Shown piece by piece: positions 7,975 to 25,121 of a DNA stretch of 28,346 nucleotides. This DNA is from a virus. A program made the position numbers and the translations under genes. The stretch is taken from positions 1-28,346 of the IMG/VR virus record IMGVR_UViG_3300027747_004424. One strand, written 5' to 3'. The stretch's first letter is position 1. The number at the start of each line of letters is the position of its first letter. The notes under the pieces were generated by a model. The model made no database searches. It was not told the origin of the DNA and worked only from the letters and a program-made list of their open reading frames with translations.

Positions 7975-8694
7975 TTATTTATGAGGTCTGTCTTGTGGAA
8001 AGAACCATCCTTGGCTCTTTAAATCTTCAAGCTCTGGATCTTCCACTTCATCTGGATTAAGCAAAGAAGGAAGAGGGGTGTGAAAGTTGTTATCTTTTTC
8101 ATTTGTGTACAATCCCAGTGGGCTGATTACACCCCGTACACCGTAGTCTAGAGTTTTAATAAGTTGTGGACGGTTGTAGTCATCCAACTTCACAACATCA
8201 AAATATTGAGAACATAATTCATTCTCTAAAATAATCAACGCCCACACCAATGCCATGATCCTATCATCATAGCTATCTGAACCTGGACGGGCACCCCACG
8301 TATTATTAGGATACCGTATAAAATTTTTCAATTCTTTCAGAGTGTTGATATCATGAAATTTTATAACTCTCAATTCATTTACCCAGTAGCGCATATTCAT
8401 GACACCGCGATATTTGGTATTTGTATGTGATAATATGCCAACTCTCTTTTTCTCAGCCATGTCACCTGCTTTGGCACCCCACGACACTACATTTTCATAA
8501 CCATGGGTAAATTTTAACTGTTCAACAACTTGTGCACCGCAACTGTTTCTTTCAATGCAGACTGTGGGTCTTCCCCATTGAGTTAAAATGTCCAACAGTT
8601 TAGCGGTAAATTGATAAGGTATGGTGTCTCTTGTATGGTAACAGGCAACTTGTTCTATTGATGTGAGATCTGTCACATCCAACACTTGTATCAC
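7975..8694 (-). CDS. Large terminase, C-terminal nuclease piece
   Basis: This 239-residue frame begins at a GTG (8694-8692) and encodes most of the RNase H-like nuclease domain of the gp17 family. IQVLDVTDL at the start equals the T4 IIDVT strand. CIERNSCG (Glu48) corresponds to T4 Glu458. SYDDRIMALVWAL (Asp143/Asp144) corresponds to the T4 Asp542 region. The first catalytic aspartate is not here but at the end of the upstream piece. The two frames overlap by four bases and differ by one frame; a stop closes this frame just before the GTG. A GAGGG about 12 bases before the GTG might serve as a ribosome site. The family expects a single protein, so this may be a frameshifted gene or a genuine split. 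Confidence 0.85.
   Translation of the reverse strand: MIQVLDVTDLTSIEQVACYHTRDTIPYQFTAKLLDILTQWGRPTVCIERNSCGAQVVEQLKFTHGYENVVSWGAKAGDMAEKKRVGILSHTNTKYRGVMNMRYWVNELRVIKFHDINTLKELKNFIRYPNNTWGARPGSDSYDDRIMALVWALIILENELCSQYFDVVKLDDYNRPQLIKTLDYGVRGVISPLGLYTNEKDNNFHTPLPSLLNPDEVEDPELEDLKSQGWFFPQDRPHK
7976..7983 (-). promoter_or_regulatory. Late-promoter-like octamer inside terminase end
   Basis: The minus strand reads CATAAATA, which overlaps the last codons and stop of the terminase C-terminal piece and stands four bases before the ATG of the 203-residue gene. Confidence 0.5.
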
Positions 8695-9677
8695 ACTTCA
8701 TTCACACCCTCACTGACGTCAACCCCTACAGTGTAGATACGGCCTTCTTTAGGCTCTTCCCAAACCAGATACTTGCTTTCGTCAAAAATATATTCTGGCT
8801 CGCGAGTCTCTTTGTACAGGTATTGATACAAGTCTTCATTAATAGTACTCTCACCGCTATGCAGGAATTCGTTTCCAAATTCTTGAGAAAATATTTCTTC
8901 ACTGCCCAATGTTTTGATTGTGTCGTTTTTCCACTTCTCATCTCTGCCAGGAATTTCCCACCAGTCAATTCTTTCTGCTTTCCAATTATTCTCACCATCC
9001 ATGGCACCTTGATACAGACGGTAAAATAAATTTTCTGTTCCGTTGGGGGTACTAGCAATAAAGATTTTACTCTTCTTGGAGCTACTAATAATAGGGTAGA
9101 CTGATTCCCAAAACTTTTCAACAATATGATTATCAATAAATGCAAGCTCATCAAGAATTAGACAGTTGCAAGAATCGCCTCTGCCAGCATCACTGCTCGT
9201 GGTGCTTATGCCTATGCTACTGCCATTTGTTAGCGTCATGCTTGTTTGTCCATACTCTACTACACCGGGTTTCAAATAATTTGGTAGCATTTCGTACGCC
9301 ATGCGTACGCGTTTAAAAATATTTTTTGCAGTTTGCTCTTTATTAGCCACAATTAAGATTCTTTGATCATCATTGAAGCAGGCATTCCACAAACAATAAA
9401 TGGTCATTTGTGTGGTCTTGCCACTCTGTCTTGAGGAAAGTAAAATGACAAATCTATTATCTCTCAAATCTCTCAACACTCTCTTTTGACAAGAATATAA
9501 TTTGATTTTTTCTTTGCCGCGATCCAGGTTAACAATGAAGAAATGATTCTCTGCAAAATGTAATAAGTTTTTTTTACACTTTTTTATTTCATTTACCATC
9601 TCAGGTGTGTACTCATGCAAAGTGTCACTTGTGGGCAATCGCTCATTGCCTAGGTAATATTTTTCTTTTTCTGGCAT
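8691..9677 (-). CDS. Large terminase, N-terminal ATPase piece
   Basis: This 328-residue protein holds the packaging ATPase of the gp17 family: Walker A SSRQSGKT at 81-88, Walker B CLILDE at 172-177, and the coupling motif FIASTPNG at 206-213. It ends at GVDVSEGVNEV. Asp320 in VDVSEG corresponds to T4 Asp401, the first nuclease catalytic residue. In relatives this motif continues as G-x-DYS into the strand that here opens the next frame. The ATPase drives DNA into the prohead at the portal, and the nuclease cuts the concatemer. A late-promoter-like octamer lies five bases before the ATG, divergent from the next plus-strand gene. The ATPase half looks intact; the break lies just after the nuclease motif I aspartate. 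Confidence 0.92.
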   Translation of the reverse strand: MPEKEKYYLGNERLPTSDTLHEYTPEMVNEIKKCKKNLLHFAENHFFIVNLDRGKEKIKLYSCQKRVLRDLRDNRFVILLSSRQSGKTTQMTIYCLWNACFNDDQRILIVANKEQTAKNIFKRVRMAYEMLPNYLKPGVVEYGQTSMTLTNGSSIGISTTSSDAGRGDSCNCLILDELAFIDNHIVEKFWESVYPIISSSKKSKIFIASTPNGTENLFYRLYQGAMDGENNWKAERIDWWEIPGRDEKWKNDTIKTLGSEEIFSQEFGNEFLHSGESTINEDLYQYLYKETREPEYIFDESKYLVWEEPKEGRIYTVGVDVSEGVNEV

Positions 9678-19669: not shown

Positions 19670-19926
19670 TTTCTAGAGTTTATATATTTCATTATGTATT
19701 TGCTTTTACATAAAGAAGGATCAAACTCTAAGAATATTCTAACCGCGGAAATATCATTATCAACATCAAGCATGCATTGGAATAAATTCTTCACATTTTT
19801 ATTTTGCAAATACAGAAGAAGTATATTAGCCAAGTTATATTTTTTACTAAATGCTATACAAACATAGCTACAAAATGTTCTAAAAAGATGATCAGTCTCT
19901 TCCCTATTAATATTATTAAAGTTCAT
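19666..19926 (-). CDS. Hypothetical protein, 86 residues, gp33 position
   Basis: This is a small helical protein with several Cys and aromatic residues (LFRTFCSYVCIAFSKKYNLA and NLFQCMLDVDNDISAVRIF). It occupies the place that the late-transcription co-activator gene 33 holds in T4, directly before 59 and 32, but has no gp33-like hydrophobic clamp-binding tail and I see no sequence match. It overlaps both neighbours, so it is a real translationally coupled gene. The function is unassigned. Confidence 0.65.
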   Translation of the reverse strand: MNFNNINREETDHLFRTFCSYVCIAFSKKYNLANILLLYLQNKNVKNLFQCMLDVDNDISAVRIFLEFDPSLCKSKYIMKYINSRK

Positions 19927-20797
19927 TTGGCAGCAAGGTCTTACTGAAATTTATAAACACATCATTAAGAATGCCACCCGAAGAATTGGCATGACCGCCA
20001 CCTGCTGCTAAATTTTTAGCCAATGTGTTCAAATCGCAACCACATTCCTTTTGCTTTCTAAAGCTAACCTTGCCGCTTTTGAGGTTAACCACAACACCTA
20101 TATTAGTCTGAATCTTCGATAATAGATACTCGGCAACATCATTTACAGCAAAATCAGCAAACGTACTGCCTATAGTATATTGCTTATCGTCATGCGTAAC
20201 AACCCCTCTGTAGAACTGAAGGCTTTTGAGAGTCTCTCCCAGTCTCTTGAGATAAAAGGCAATTATGTTCTTTTGAAATTTAGTAAATCCACAAAACCCA
20301 TTCTGGAATTCATCATAAAATTTTGCAACCCTATCACCCTGATAACTCCAAAACAAATAGTTTAATAGTTTCGATTGCGGTAACTTGTGCTCGTAACTAT
20401 CATAATCATTAGCTAGCAAGAGTAGTAATTTTTTAGCTTTGTCTAAGTTAGGTTTTAAATAATTGTAAGCTAGTATACAGGTACTAGCCGCTTCCTCTGC
20501 TATCACCTGTGCTTTGGTAAATTTAGACTTTTTCTCTATGGTCGAAGCATGGTGATCGATAATAGTGACGTTTGGAAAATCAAACAACATCTCATTGCCT
20601 TCTGGACAAATATCACATATGTAAATCCTGTCAAACTTATCAATATTCTTCAAGATAGTATTCTTCCAGTATGTACTAAAATCTGCTGTGGTTAGTGGCT
20701 TCACAGGTATTCTTCTTCCCTTGAACCAACACACCACACAGTAAGACGCAGCACCATCGAGGTCAGTATGTGTTATAACGAGCTCTGTAGTGTTCAT
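19916..20797 (-). CDS. DHH-family phosphoesterase
   Basis: This 293-residue enzyme of the DHH/DHHA1 family shows HTDLDG (10-15), CDICPE (61-66), the signature DHH (81-83) and a C-terminal GGGHANSSGG (266-275), all as in NrnA/RecJ-type proteins. These enzymes use two metals to hydrolyse phosphodiesters in short oligonucleotides, cyclic dinucleotides or single-strand DNA ends. In a replication block it may recycle nanoRNA, process ends, or destroy host cyclic-nucleotide signals. The size favours NrnA-like enzymes over full RecJ. Its start overlaps the stop of the helicase gene (TAATG), suggesting linked expression. Substrate choice is not decided by sequence. Confidence 0.85.
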   Translation of the reverse strand: MNTTELVITHTDLDGAASYCVVCWFKGRRIPVKPLTTADFSTYWKNTILKNIDKFDRIYICDICPEGNEMLFDFPNVTIIDHHASTIEKKSKFTKAQVIAEEAASTCILAYNYLKPNLDKAKKLLLLLANDYDSYEHKLPQSKLLNYLFWSYQGDRVAKFYDEFQNGFCGFTKFQKNIIAFYLKRLGETLKSLQFYRGVVTHDDKQYTIGSTFADFAVNDVAEYLLSKIQTNIGVVVNLKSGKVSFRKQKECGCDLNTLAKNLAAGGGHANSSGGILNDVFINFSKTLLPNEL

Positions 20798-22140
20798 TAT
20801 TCTTCTACCAACGAGGTGAGCGATCTGGAGAATTGCACTGCTTCTTCACTTTCGTTTATAGTTTCGTCCTCTGTAATTGTTAATGTATTGTAATCCACCT
20901 TGAGTGCAATACTACCAAAATTAGGCCCGAAGCGATTCTTCGACATACCTAAATTAATAATACCCAATTCCTTATCTTCTTCTTTTTGCCAAATAGAAAT
21001 GATGGCATCGGCCGTTGTAGCTAATCCTATACTTTCAGAAATTGTCTCTAGACCTGGATTATCAATATTAAACCCAGATCTGTTTAACTGTGTTGCAGAT
21101 ACAATAGGACAATTTAATTCATAGCTAATTGCACGTACTTGTTGAGCGCTATATAAAACTCTTTCATAACTATTATTACCAACAGGGCTATGCAGTAGAT
21201 TCAAATAATCGAGAACTATTAAATCTATTTTAATATTCTTCTGTACTAATTTCTTAACAAAAGCTTTAAGTTGGTGCGGGGTTAATGTTGATGGGGGGAA
21301 TTCCTTAATAATAATCTTTGGCTTTTTACTTGTTAGAATTTGTGTCATTGATTCTTTAAGAAGTTGACTATCCTGCTTCAAATGTGAAATAGGTATGCTC
21401 GTAATAGAAGACGACAAGCGTCTTGCATACATCATTTCGCTCATTTCCAAAGAAACAAGCAAAACATTTTTACCGAGAAGCGCAACATTACTAGCGATAT
21501 TGCCCAGAAAAATACTCTTACCCACATTTGTTTCACCGGCAAACACATACAAAGATCGCCCGTTCTCAGCTAACCCACCACCCAGCTTATGATCAAGCCA
21601 TTTCCAACCAGTTCTAATACAAGGTTCCTCTCTGTTGAGCTCTTCAATAAAAACATCAATATCTTTGAATAAATCTAACCCCATCTTTTGTGATAGGTTT
21701 ACACTTACTGCCTTTTCGATCTTCTGCAATAATTCAGAGGTATTCAGTCTTTTATTATCAAGCTTTTCAGCAGCATCTAGCAGAGTATTAAACACTCCCT
21801 TTTCCTTTAAAAAGAGCTCAGTATTTTCTGCAAGTTCTGCTCTTTCGAATTTTTTATCTAAATCTATAAACGATGAAACTACTCGCTTGAAACTTTCCTT
21901 CAGTTCATCTGTCGTCAAGTAAGCCTTAATCTCTGTATTACTAGGAACTGTTCCATGCTTGCTGAAGAACTCAATAATAATTTTTATGACGTTCTGTATG
22001 TCTTTACTTCTGAAAAATTTTACTTCCAGATGATCTATGATGGCTGATAGATAAGTGGCATCAATCAAGCAATTATAGACTATAACAGTCTCGTAAAAAT
22101 CTAAATCTAAACTTTTATCTTTTTCTTTTATTTTGTCCAT
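20797..22140 (-). CDS. Replicative DNA helicase, gp41/DnaB-like
   Basis: This 447-residue hexameric helicase (T4 gp41 475) has an N-terminal helical domain (1-150), then a RecA-like core: Walker A AGETNVGKS (201-209), SLEMSEMMYARR (230-241), Walker B DLIVLDYLN (306-314), an ATQLNRSG motif and a C-terminal SKNRFGPN loop. It unwinds the fork and stimulates the primase encoded about 6 kb downstream. The helicase loader and SSB genes follow on the same strand. Its first codons overlap the end of the glycosyltransferase gene by 13 bases. Confidence 0.93.
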   Translation of the reverse strand: MDKIKEKDKSLDLDFYETVIVYNCLIDATYLSAIIDHLEVKFFRSKDIQNVIKIIIEFFSKHGTVPSNTEIKAYLTTDELKESFKRVVSSFIDLDKKFERAELAENTELFLKEKGVFNTLLDAAEKLDNKRLNTSELLQKIEKAVSVNLSQKMGLDLFKDIDVFIEELNREEPCIRTGWKWLDHKLGGGLAENGRSLYVFAGETNVGKSIFLGNIASNVALLGKNVLLVSLEMSEMMYARRLSSSITSIPISHLKQDSQLLKESMTQILTSKKPKIIIKEFPPSTLTPHQLKAFVKKLVQKNIKIDLIVLDYLNLLHSPVGNNSYERVLYSAQQVRAISYELNCPIVSATQLNRSGFNIDNPGLETISESIGLATTADAIISIWQKEEDKELGIINLGMSKNRFGPNFGSIALKVDYNTLTITEDETINESEEAVQFSRSLTSLVEE

Positions 22141-22787
22141 TTTTCAATAAAGGCCTTATTGCTTCTATTCCACTCTGTATCATTTACATTCAAGAGTCCC
22201 GGGCTCTGGTGTTCTATAAGAATAGGCCATACTCCCATTTTAATCTTATTCTTATTACAAGTCAAGCTAAAATCTATATCATAATGGTGCCATAAAAACG
22301 TTTCATCAAATCTCGCTTTAGATCCTTTTACCCTTCTAGCATCTAGCGCAAGAAATACACCATCCAGAATAGTGACACGGTCTGGTGACGGTCCAAATGC
22401 TGTAACAAATATTTCTTTAGAATTTTTTGCAATTGGATGGGCTGCAAATCCGCGTTGACTTGCTTTACCAGACATCCAATGCCAAAGATTTTTTTCAACA
22501 ATCCTAGGATCTTTGCAACCTGCTACACCGATGACATCAAAATACTTTAATCCTTCTTCAACTTGTAATCTTAAATTGCATAGTTTGAGTGAAACATCAT
22601 GATGGCAAAATATTAGAATATCATAAATGTTATTATTATTAATAATACTATTGTAATATTCACATAGACCCATGGTTGTGTTGTTGTATTTGATGTGAAA
22701 ATCTATATCACTATAATGCTTAATACTTTCTTCCAGAAGACAGTCAGAAGACAAGGGGCTGATAGAATATATTCCTATCTTTTTCAC
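22128..22787 (-). CDS. Glycosyltransferase-like protein (PF13712 type)
   Basis: This 219-residue protein fits the Glyco_tranf_2_5 pattern: an acidic ILIFCHHDVSL (58-67) in place of DxD, then IGVAGCKDP, ILDGVFLALDARR (140-152), FDETFLWHHYDIDFSL (160-175), and IEHQSPG near 191-197. Such proteins have a GT-A fold and usually use nucleotide sugars. In a phage the acceptor could be a virion protein, modified DNA, or host surface glycan. The start is GTG at 22787, and a TATAATTT element lies four bases upstream. The nucleotide-sugar reductase gene in the same transcription direction may supply a donor. It is not a DNA beta-glucosyltransferase of the T4 type by sequence. Confidence 0.8.
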   Translation of the reverse strand: MKKIGIYSISPLSSDCLLEESIKHYSDIDFHIKYNNTTMGLCEYYNSIINNNNIYDILIFCHHDVSLKLCNLRLQVEEGLKYFDVIGVAGCKDPRIVEKNLWHWMSGKASQRGFAAHPIAKNSKEIFVTAFGPSPDRVTILDGVFLALDARRVKGSKARFDETFLWHHYDIDFSLTCNKNKIKMGVWPILIEHQSPGLLNVNDTEWNRSNKAFIEKWTK

Positions 22788-22827: not shown

Positions 22828-23706
22828 ATGAATAAAGATTCTAAGCTAATTTTTGAAGCATATAAACAGAATATCATTAATGAGGCGCCACCTGCTTATT
22901 CAGCAGGAGATCTCAGTTATACCGGTGATGTGGAGAATGCACCCGGTGGTGGATATGGCATTGGCAAGAAAGCTGCAAAAGAAGGCAAAAGTAAAACAGA
23001 AATAGCCAATGATCTTATAAAAAAGATTCAAACAGCTTTGTTCAAATCTGAACCTCATACTGTAGATGGTATAGAATATACTTTGTATTACCCAGGAAAT
23101 GAGATGAAGCTCAAAAATGATTTGGTTAATATTGTACAAAAGGAACTAGGATTGGGTAAGACTGAAGCCACATACACAGCACGTATTATAAAAAATTTAT
23201 CGAATATAGTTGTAAAGGATGAAGCTACTGGTGGTACAGTATCAAGACCAGAAGTGATCAAGAAAGCTGTCGCTGATGGCATGCAAGGCAAAGAAAGCAC
23301 ACCTGCTGCACCTGTTAAGACAGAGACTGTTTACGAGATTGATAAATCTGTAAAAATACCTAATGCAGGAATCAGATCTATTGTCATATCATTGCCAGAT
23401 GAAGATGTGCCTGAAAAAGAAATATTAGGCGTTCTTAAGAGTGCCATAAGTGAATATAATGACAAGCCTGGCATTGATCCAATTAAGATCAAGTCTTATG
23501 ATTTGCTAGACCAACTAAAAGAAGCTGGTGTTATCAAAGAAAAGCAAGTGGAAAGGCAAGCTGCAGAAGGTGAAGGCTCTGGTGAAGTAGAGACAATGGA
23601 TGAATACCCAGAGGCAGATGATGTTGGTTCTGTAGCAAGAGAGCTAGGATTTACCAGTAGAGGTCGCGGTGGAGACTCATTCGATAAGACAGCAATGTCT
23701 TATTAA
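22828..23706 (+). CDS. Virion protein with targeting-like N-terminus
   Basis: This 292-residue protein of unknown family begins MNKDSKLIFEAYKQNIINEA, a short helix with two (L/I)-x-E sites (IFE-Ala and INE-Ala), which fits the T4 prohead-protease rule. A Gly/Ala linker follows, then a region near 60-135 with IANDLIKKIQTALF and LGKTEATYTARIIKNLSNIV, then a Pro/Ala linker. A second folded part from about 165 to 235 is beta-rich and ends with YDLLDQLKEAGVI. The tail is acidic (AEGEGSGEVETMDEYPEADD). It has no enzyme motif. A late promoter precedes it. It is the only plus-strand gene in this block and its stop overlaps the convergent stop. Internal head protein is an inference. Confidence 0.7.
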   Translation: MNKDSKLIFEAYKQNIINEAPPAYSAGDLSYTGDVENAPGGGYGIGKKAAKEGKSKTEIANDLIKKIQTALFKSEPHTVDGIEYTLYYPGNEMKLKNDLVNIVQKELGLGKTEATYTARIIKNLSNIVVKDEATGGTVSRPEVIKKAVADGMQGKESTPAAPVKTETVYEIDKSVKIPNAGIRSIVISLPDEDVPEKEILGVLKSAISEYNDKPGIDPIKIKSYDLLDQLKEAGVIKEKQVERQAAEGEGSGEVETMDEYPEADDVGSVARELGFTSRGRGGDSFDKTAMSY

Positions 23707-24377
23707 GTAAAGAACGGGCTATTGAAATCAAACTGACTAACAGAAGTTAGTCCTTCGCGTGTTAATTGGTATATGTAACCTTCTTCCAAGGCCTCACTAT
23801 TTTTAAATTTTGTACTGCTAAAGTCATTACTCAACAGGTTTGCAAAAAGCGTGCTGCCACATCTTGCTATATAAATGCGCAAATCAATTGAACTATAAAT
23901 CCATAACCCAAAAGTACCTTCTAGCAAGCTCAGCCCCTTGGATAATGCATCTAAAGGATCTTTGCCTTCCTTACATAAACTATTAATAATGGCAGGAATA
24001 GTACTTGAGTCAACTGGATTTTTCCATTTTGGTAACATATTGATTTTAATTTCTTCAAAGTTTGTTAAAACACCGTTATGGGCCACAGTCCACCCTTCAG
24101 TATTAAAAGGGTGTGAAGTCGTTTTACTATATTCTCGTTTAGCAGATGTAGGTGCTTGTGTGTGGCCTAAAAAAGCGGTTGCCTTACTTTCTTTATCAAT
24201 AATTTTCAATTGATCCTCCACAGTTTTTACTGCTGGTGATCCCTGCCATTTCATCACAGGTAAATCCCCATTCTCCAACACTACGCTAATGGATGTAGCA
24301 AAGGTACCTCTTTGCTTGTTTAATTCGTAAAGTGTTAAAAATCTTTCTCTGTCGTTAGAACCAAATATACCGCACAT
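23703..24377 (-). CDS. Stand-alone class II glutamine amidotransferase
   Basis: This 224-residue Ntn-type glutaminase domain starts MCGIFG with Cys2 as nucleophile after Met removal. Further motifs are GHTQAPT (71-77), HPF (89-91) and AHNGVLTN (99-106), whose Asn-Gly forms the oxyanion hole in the family. It resembles the N-terminal domain of asparagine synthase and GlmS but has no synthase domain, so it probably passes ammonia to a partner. It begins immediately after the stop of the QueC gene, which is the obvious partner; fused GAT-QueC proteins are known from phages with 7-amido-7-deazaguanine DNA. The glutamine-binding Arg of GHTR in GlmS is replaced by Gln here. The stop overlaps that of the plus-strand gene. 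Confidence 0.85.
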   Translation of the reverse strand: MCGIFGSNDRERFLTLYELNKQRGTFATSISVVLENGDLPVMKWQGSPAVKTVEDQLKIIDKESKATAFLGHTQAPTSAKREYSKTTSHPFNTEGWTVAHNGVLTNFEEIKINMLPKWKNPVDSSTIPAIINSLCKEGKDPLDALSKGLSLLEGTFGLWIYSSIDLRIYIARCGSTLFANLLSNDFSSTKFKNSEALEEGYIYQLTREGLTSVSQFDFNSPFFT

Positions 24378-25121
24378 TCAATTATTATAGGTTTCGTAAT
24401 TAATTAATCTACACTTATATTTGTCCCAGACGGCAGATAAATCTTGTTTGTATGGTATTGGGTCTATGTAACCGGCATTGGCAAATCCCTTTATTCTCAA
24501 AGCGCTGCTAGGTGAGTTTGCATCAGATAAATCATCACCTGAATAACATGTATATGTTTTACTAAACATTACAAACAGTCTCACACCCTCTCTTACGATA
24601 TCCGCTTTGTCCATATTAATGAGTGGGGCCTCAATCGTTATTTTTGTTTCTCTATTCAAGGAAAGTACCCCATTGATTGTTGGTAAAAACTCAGGACTTG
24701 CATCCCAATACCCTGCTAAACTATCTATTTTAGTTGCACCATGGTAGACTGTTCCAGCACCTACAGCTTCGGCATATGAAGCAGCAATACTCAGGAATAT
24801 CATATTTCTATTAGGCACATATGATTTTGGTTGAGCTTCCCCTGCCACTTCCCTTATATCTGGTGTCTCTATGTCATTGTTTGTAAGGCTACTTGTGGGC
24901 GCAAGCTTTCTGATAAAAGTAGTGTCTATTGTTTGCCATTCTTTAATTTTTAATCTATTGACATGGTATTCTGCCAGTTCAAGCTCTTTCTTGTGGCGTT
25001 GACCATAATCATAAGATAGCCCAAACACATTGTCCCTGCCAAACTTCTCCACAGCTTGGTGTAGAATAACGGTACTATCCATACCGCCAGAAATAGGAAC
25101 AACTACTTTATTCTTTTTCAC
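24378..25121 (-). CDS. queC: Divergent QueC (7-deazaguanine ATP-dependent amidation enzyme)
   Basis: This 247-residue QueC-like member of the N-type ATP pyrophosphatase family has a SGGMDST loop (11-17), LSYDYGQRHKKE (35-46) and NRNMIFLSIAASYAE (104-118). QueC turns carboxy-deazaguanine into preQ0 through an adenylated intermediate and an amide. Here Cys192 (TYTCY) is kept, but the usual CG-x-C-x-x-C is DANSPSS: Asp200, Ser203 and Ser206. The expected YPDCR is YWDAS (138-142). The start is GTG at 25121, overlapping the UvsX end by 14 bases, and the stop touches the amidotransferase start. It probably acts in DNA-modification nucleotide synthesis; an amide rather than a nitrile product is possible. 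No queD or queE gene lies in this window. Confidence 0.8.
   Translation of the reverse strand: MKKNKVVVPISGGMDSTVILHQAVEKFGRDNVFGLSYDYGQRHKKELELAEYHVNRLKIKEWQTIDTTFIRKLAPTSSLTNNDIETPDIREVAGEAQPKSYVPNRNMIFLSIAASYAEAVGAGTVYHGATKIDSLAGYWDASPEFLPTINGVLSLNRETKITIEAPLINMDKADIVREGVRLFVMFSKTYTCYSGDDLSDANSPSSALRIKGFANAGYIDPIPYKQDLSAVWDKYKCRLINYETYNN

Follow-up and report, generated by a model that had tools for sequence, protein, structure and literature searches.

Can a QueC-family enzyme that has lost most of its zinc-binding cysteines still convert 7-carboxy-7-deazaguanine (CDG) into preQ0, or does it make something else? This question is raised by an ORF in the window, the whole 28,346-base virus record (a 28-kb fragment of a freshwater phage) analysed here (Table 1). 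The original prediction for this locus had described a QueC homolog with three of its four zinc cysteines replaced, located next to a glutaminase, and had regarded it as probably active but changed, the zinc loss hinting at a different product or partner, such as a stop at the amide.

A QueC-family protein with an altered zinc loop

The ORF gave a Pfam match to PF06508 (QueC) covering residues 5–216 with an E-value of 3.7e-52, and its PHROG match was PHROG 1550 (QueC-like). Structure prediction of the zinc region had been proposed from the beginning, and the AlphaFold model of the protein reached a mean pLDDT of 92, with blocks of 88–98 in the former zinc loop; these values carry the caveat applying to any metal site, namely that a confident fold is possible with or without the metal. 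When the model was searched with Foldseek, the QueC structures 2pg3 and 3bl5 came first; Cap9 (9nto) was also among the first PDB matches.

Alignment with the QueCs of E. coli and phages bore out the replacement of three zinc cysteines: CGxCxxC has become DANSPSS, so that the last three ligand positions are now occupied by Asp200, Ser203 and Ser206, and the first zinc cysteine, Cys192 in TCY, is retained. The ATP-binding loop is intact, as had also been stated. The reading YWDAS in place of YPDCR was likewise correct, but Tyr138 and Asp140 are kept; their counterparts, common to B. subtilis QueC, contact 7-deazaguanine in Cap9 (PMC13279940). Since zinc-keeping phage QueCs also read YWDA, YWDG, YWDT or YHDT at this place, with Ala, Gly or Thr for Cys, the YWDA variant is separate from the zinc loss and was ruled out as a part of it.

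Lys172 and Tyr193 are intact in the window QueC. According to a family survey, alanine mutants of E. coli QueC at Y35, R99, Y131 and Y189 abolished queuosine formation (PMC13329287); all four corresponding residues (Tyr39, Arg105, Tyr138 and Tyr193) are retained in the alignment. With canonical QueC (PF06508 cluster 1; E. coli, B. subtilis 3bl5), the window protein shares the fold, SGGxDS, YxQxHxxE, VPxRN, the Tyr and Asp of YPDC and the essential Tyr that follows the first zinc Cys, whereas it differs by Asp, Ser and Ser for three zinc cysteines, by YWDA for YPDC and by an adjacent, separate glutamine amidotransferase (GATase). Apart from the zinc ligands, the whole published signature of canonical QueC is retained. 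We file the protein as a predicted zinc-less variant within the QueC family rather than as a canonical QueC, because C(x)8CxxCxxC is absent while the profile match, the fold and the other motifs of QueC are present. The notion of a probably active but changed enzyme fits this pattern of conserved motifs; the part concerning a different product fared worse (see below).

Table 1. Coordinates of features in the window and in the related phage genome G001.
Feature	Sequence	Position	Strand	Remarks
QueC-family ATP pyrophosphatase without complete zinc site	window	24378..25121	-	247 aa, GTG start
SGGMDS ATP loop, residues 11-16	window	25074..25091	-	S11, G13, D15 and S16 invariant in 43 sequences
YGQRHKKE motif, residues 39-46 (YxQxHxxE)	window	24984..25007	-	alignment
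VPNRN motif, residues 102-106 (VPxRN)	window	24804..24818	-	alignment
YWDAS, residues 138-142, counterpart of YPDCR	window	24696..24710	-	Tyr138 and Asp140 (deazaguanine contacts) kept
Former zinc loop, residues 192-206 (CYSGDDLSDANSPSS)	window	24504..24548	-	Cys192 kept; Asp200, Ser203 and Ser206 replace cysteines; alignment and codons
Class II GATase, proposed ammonia donor	window	23703..24377	-	GATase_6; immediately downstream of queC
FolE	G001	173992-174648		
QueD	G001	176341-176994 (L122:5341-5994)		
QueE	G001	177775-178521		
phrog_19058 DpdA-like protein	G001	78730-79530		second cluster
IMPDH/GMP-reductase-type protein	G001	80107-81072 (L117:4107-5072)		second cluster
QueF	G001	82040-82957		second cluster

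Fixation and repeated loss of the zinc site

In IMG/VR, 80 loci with a window-type QueC were found; the readable ones comprise 39 without and 40 with CxxCxxC. The zinc-less sequences form one clade (support 97/90 without the locus L047 and 80/80 with it), whose nearest relatives in the tree retain the zinc site. Within this clade, the site is absent in all 39 readable members, and the loop keeps its conservation to identities as low as about 50%. For close relatives of the window QueC, dN is about 0.09–0.16 and synonymous sites are near saturation, with the loop no less conserved than other parts of the protein. Chance, a pseudogene or decay, and an assembly error are ruled out by the 39 concordant members and the low dN. 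As read from these sequences, the zinc loss of the window QueC is fixed and the protein is under purifying selection.

The QueCs of L037 and L038 have Ser in place of the Asp of D-x-x-S-x-x-S. The zinc-less QueC of L047 (L047:5656-6453) lacks all four cysteines, and its loop contains an insertion; with its weak link to the window clade, it possibly represents a third zinc loss. The last zinc cysteine alone is replaced by Asp in L292 (CSKCGTDVER) and L313 (CGRCGTDNER), and these two QueCs are possible intermediates.

A second zinc-less lineage includes the cultured Flavobacterium phage vB_FspM_immuto_2-6A (hereafter immuto; Immutovirus is reportedly the subject of a 2021 study by Hoetzinger). 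None of the four zinc cysteines is left in its QueC (gp028; TSY...SDYKSASSVER). At least 600 IMG/VR relatives of this protein are among the matches listed, and 80 of 80 examined are without the zinc site. With the zinc-loop columns removed, a single clade of zinc-less QueCs was rejected by the AU test (p 3.5e-17), which rules out one common origin, and on the tree built without these columns, well-supported branches make two changes necessary. By this phylogeny, the zinc site of QueC was lost independently at least twice. D-x-x-S-x-x-S occupies the former ligand positions in both lineages, an apparent convergence. The immuto QueC resembles the window QueC in its missing site and in this loop, but it differs in its separate origin in the tree, in the intact YPDCR, in the loss of all four cysteines and in that no GATase was detected. 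In one scan of cellular genomes, no zinc-less QueC was found among the 79 readable closest relatives, bacterial proteins that all keep CxxCxxC.

Pathway genes in related phages

No further preQ0 pathway gene was found inside the 28-kb window; a UvsX-like recombinase is encoded upstream of queC. Because the window is only a fragment, the pathway was inferred from G001 (229,717 bases), a genome that is collinear with the entire window and encodes a zinc-less QueC 85% identical to that of the window. The terminase large subunit, a single ORF in G001 (138561-140306), is divided in the window between two ORFs that lie in different frames and overlap (7975-8694 and 8691-9677, minus strand), due to a frameshift, a sequencing error or a true split. 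A DHH-family phosphoesterase (phrog_4771; window 19916-20797, minus strand) had no G001 counterpart when the window ORFs were compared with G001, and the window ORF 22128-22787 (minus strand; 219 residues, no PHROG match) is 60% identical to its counterpart there.

G001 encodes FolE, QueD and QueE and, in a second cluster, the phrog_19058 protein, a PurN-like formyltransferase, an IMPDH/GMP-reductase-type protein, a small ORF, a kinase-like AAA_28 protein and QueF. A corresponding gene set is found in G012 (zinc-less QueC) and G020 (zinc-keeping QueC), from both of which the IMPDH/GMP-reductase-type gene and the small ORF within the formyltransferase-kinase-QueF cluster are absent. The immuto genome combines the zinc-less QueC with FolE, QueD and QueE and with a run of DpdA, formyltransferase, kinase and QueF; its DpdA, formyltransferase and QueF are 44–52% identical to the counterparts in G001 or G012.

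The nitrile-reductase signature is intact in the QueFs of G001, G012 and immuto. Phage QueF matches V. cholerae-type QueF structures with an E-value of 1e-48 and retains the catalytic LLKSNC, FHE and ESKSxKLY. A TGT was searched for by PF01702, with no match in 32 records. The phrog_19058 protein, present in G001, G012 and immuto and also in Campylobacter phage CPt10, has no Pfam TGT match either and came to light through its genomic context and its fold. Its predicted structure resembles TGT (2ash, E-value 1.3e-7) and the DNA preQ0 insertase DpdA (7ui4, E-value 6e-6), and the immuto homolog is annotated as DpdA in its record. The phrog_19058 protein is probably a TGT-like DNA transglycosylase of the DpdA type. 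We take this protein to be DpdA3, and the PurN-like formyltransferase to be DpdN, of Cui et al. 2023, who reportedly presented four further 7-deazaguanines together with DpdA3 and DpdN. Campylobacter phages with dADG are said to have been treated by Crippen in 2019.

QueF is not universal beside a zinc-less QueC, since seven of the 13 large immuto-like contigs that carry such a QueC yielded neither a QueF nor a formyltransferase match. These seven contigs (L191, L196, L214, L229, L237, L240 and L249, corresponding to G033, G034, G036, G038, G040, G042 and G043) encode a more distant DpdA-like protein (34–36% identical). The end product may differ in such QueF-negative phages.

The adjacent GATase

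The glutaminase claimed to adjoin QueC is indeed present, as a class II GATase on the same strand directly downstream; the two genes are separate ORFs meeting at 24377/24378, not one fused protein. Its active site residues Cys2 (nucleophile), Arg23, Asn101-Gly102 and Asp123 show little or no variation across about 80 relatives. A GATase adjoins QueC in most relatives, and equally in zinc-keeping ones. In the Vibrio Straboviridae (KVP40, nt-1, F86, 1.081.O), as in the window, a class II GATase gene comes directly after queC, and folE lies nearby as in the window lineage; KVP40 and 1.081.O also have a gene of the QueF family in this neighborhood. The QueC of these Straboviridae, unlike that of the window, keeps the zinc site. 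In the window-lineage genomes examined, no DpdA2-type transglycosylase like theirs was detected. A GATase was not detected in the immuto-like contigs in a search run without a positive control. Because zinc-keeping QueCs adjoin a GATase and the second zinc-less lineage gave none, GATase pairing and zinc loss appear unrelated.

What does the zinc-less QueC make?

We consider it probable that the window QueC is a zinc-free enzyme making preQ0 with ammonia from the adjacent GATase, in a pathway which marks phage DNA with a preQ1-type base. CDG, supplied by the preceding steps of the phage-encoded FolE-QueD-QueE-QueC route, would be converted to preQ0 in two cycles, each with activation by ATP and attack by ammonia, and the ammonia would be released from glutamine by the class II GATase. 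Phage QueF would then convert preQ0 to preQ1, which would probably be formylated by the PurN-like formyltransferase and inserted into phage DNA by the DpdA-like transglycosylase (phrog_19058). The loop formerly pinned by zinc would presumably be held by hydrogen bonds of Ser and Asp or by another metal. QueF acts on the nitrile and occurs in phages with FolE, QueD, QueE and their own zinc-less QueC, so preQ0 formation by this QueC is the simplest explanation. For the window QueC, activity, product, order of steps and absence of metal are predictions. The window phage itself would carry the pathway genes outside the 28-kb fragment, and its final base, judging from QueF and the formyltransferase, would be of the preQ1 type and perhaps formylated. 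On the other hand, QueC is described as needing zinc for its function (PMC13329287), and a host QueC could be the source of preQ0 for the phage QueF. A QueC proven to make preQ0 and carrying the same D/S/S substitutions was looked for and not found.

It is unlikely that the enzyme performs the first half-reaction only and releases the amide ADG, made with GATase ammonia as in asparagine-synthetase-type amide synthetases, to give DNA with dADG. Such DNA does exist in phages (PMC8306585), several immuto-like contigs combine a zinc-less QueC with no QueF match, and GMP synthetase and other GATase-paired ATP pyrophosphatases are without this zinc motif (PMC13329287). However, a stop at the amide predicts that zinc is absent where the amide is made and present where the nitrile is made, and the cases compared here go the opposite way. 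The QueC of CPt10, a phage reported to have all dG as dADG (PMC8306585), retains all four cysteines, and QatC and Cap9, proposed to make an amide-type bond only, retain zinc (PMC13329287). Conversely, the zinc-less G001, G012 and immuto encode an intact QueF, for which the nitrile preQ0 is required; in addition, GATase pairing is independent of zinc status. CPt10 resembles the window lineage in its DpdA-like family (47% identical) and a neighboring kinase, but differs from it in the intact zinc site of QueC and in that no QueF was found. The original suggestion of a different product, for example by stopping at the amide, is not supported by these comparisons, which are contextual rather than biochemical, and CPt10, Cap9, QatC and QueF weaken it too far to serve as the main reading.

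We also regard it as quite improbable that the GATase-QueC pair acts like the Gat-QueC of archaea and phage 9g, using ammonia and preQ0 or its DNA-bound form to produce archaeosine (dG+). The two matching activities do lie side by side, and the 9g Gat-QueC yields dG+ together with DpdA (PMC6884629). The 9g protein has GATase II and QueC activities like the window pair, but it is a fusion, keeps the zinc cysteines and reads YPDN at the substrate motif; no QueF was found in the 9g gene cluster examined. Moreover, a separate GATase also accompanies the zinc-keeping QueC of KVP40, nt-1 and 1.081.O, and nt-1 DNA contains very little dG+ (PMC6884629). QueF would compete for preQ0 in G001 and G012, and the apparent lack of a GATase in the second zinc-less lineage is a further point against archaeosine.

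Similarly doubtful is a metal-switched rather than metal-free site, where zinc would be weakly held by Cys192, Asp200 and the serines, or another ion, e.g., Mg2+ or Ca2+, would be bound there. The conservation of D-x-x-S-x-x-S in both lineages suggests a positive role of these residues, but the first cysteine is also lost in the immuto lineage and in L047. In addition, Ser replaces the Asp in L037 and L038, and serine is a poor zinc ligand.

Finally, a protein-modifying enzyme like QatC or Cap9, attaching a deazaguanine to a partner protein, is very improbable despite the shared fold and the Cap9 structure match: both QatC and Cap9 retain zinc and occur next to their protein substrates (PMC13329287), a type marked by a protein substrate gene or a CD-NTase gene alongside, whereas the window protein lacks the zinc site, neighbors a GATase and a UvsX-like recombinase and retains the small-molecule motifs of canonical QueC, and its relatives' genomes encode FolE, QueD, QueE, QueF and a DpdA-like protein.

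Zinc ligands of QueD

The zinc ligands of E. coli QueD are H16, H31 and H33. In an alignment with this protein, the QueDs of G001, G020, G030 and immuto have Phe or Tyr for the first zinc His and HGY for HGH; two of three zinc His are therefore lost (H16 to Phe/Tyr and H33 to Tyr, E. coli numbering), and the catalytic Cys, Asp-His and Glu are retained. QueD loci poor in zinc His are L122:5341-5994 (G001), L179:30008-30469 (immuto) and L102-L112. All three His are present in the QueDs of CPt10 and 9g, and phage FolE keeps its Cys-His-His and HxC segments. Since the altered QueD also occurs in phages with a zinc-keeping QueC, the QueD change is probably older than the QueC change. Ligand loss in both QueD and QueC is suggestive of zinc sparing. 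We tentatively propose, as a view that could well prove wrong, that aquatic phages evolved a zinc-sparing 7-deazaguanine pathway, in which QueC lost its zinc site at least twice, QueD lost zinc His and both enzymes work zinc-free. If true, zinc would not be intrinsic to the QueC reaction or the QueD reaction.

Significance for the QueC family

Among the features of QueC, the zinc motif counts as a hallmark; the accessible part of the 2026 family survey describes its absence for the non-QueC branches LarE and GMP synthetase only (PMC13329287). What appears to be new here is a convergent and widespread loss of this hallmark site within the known QueC family, with two independent losses in otherwise canonical enzymes among more than 100 phage loci examined. 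A dispensable zinc site would follow, and the zinc-less enzymes would provide a natural test of the role of zinc in nitrile formation. As the cultured phage immuto_2-6A carries a zinc-less QueC, this question is directly testable.
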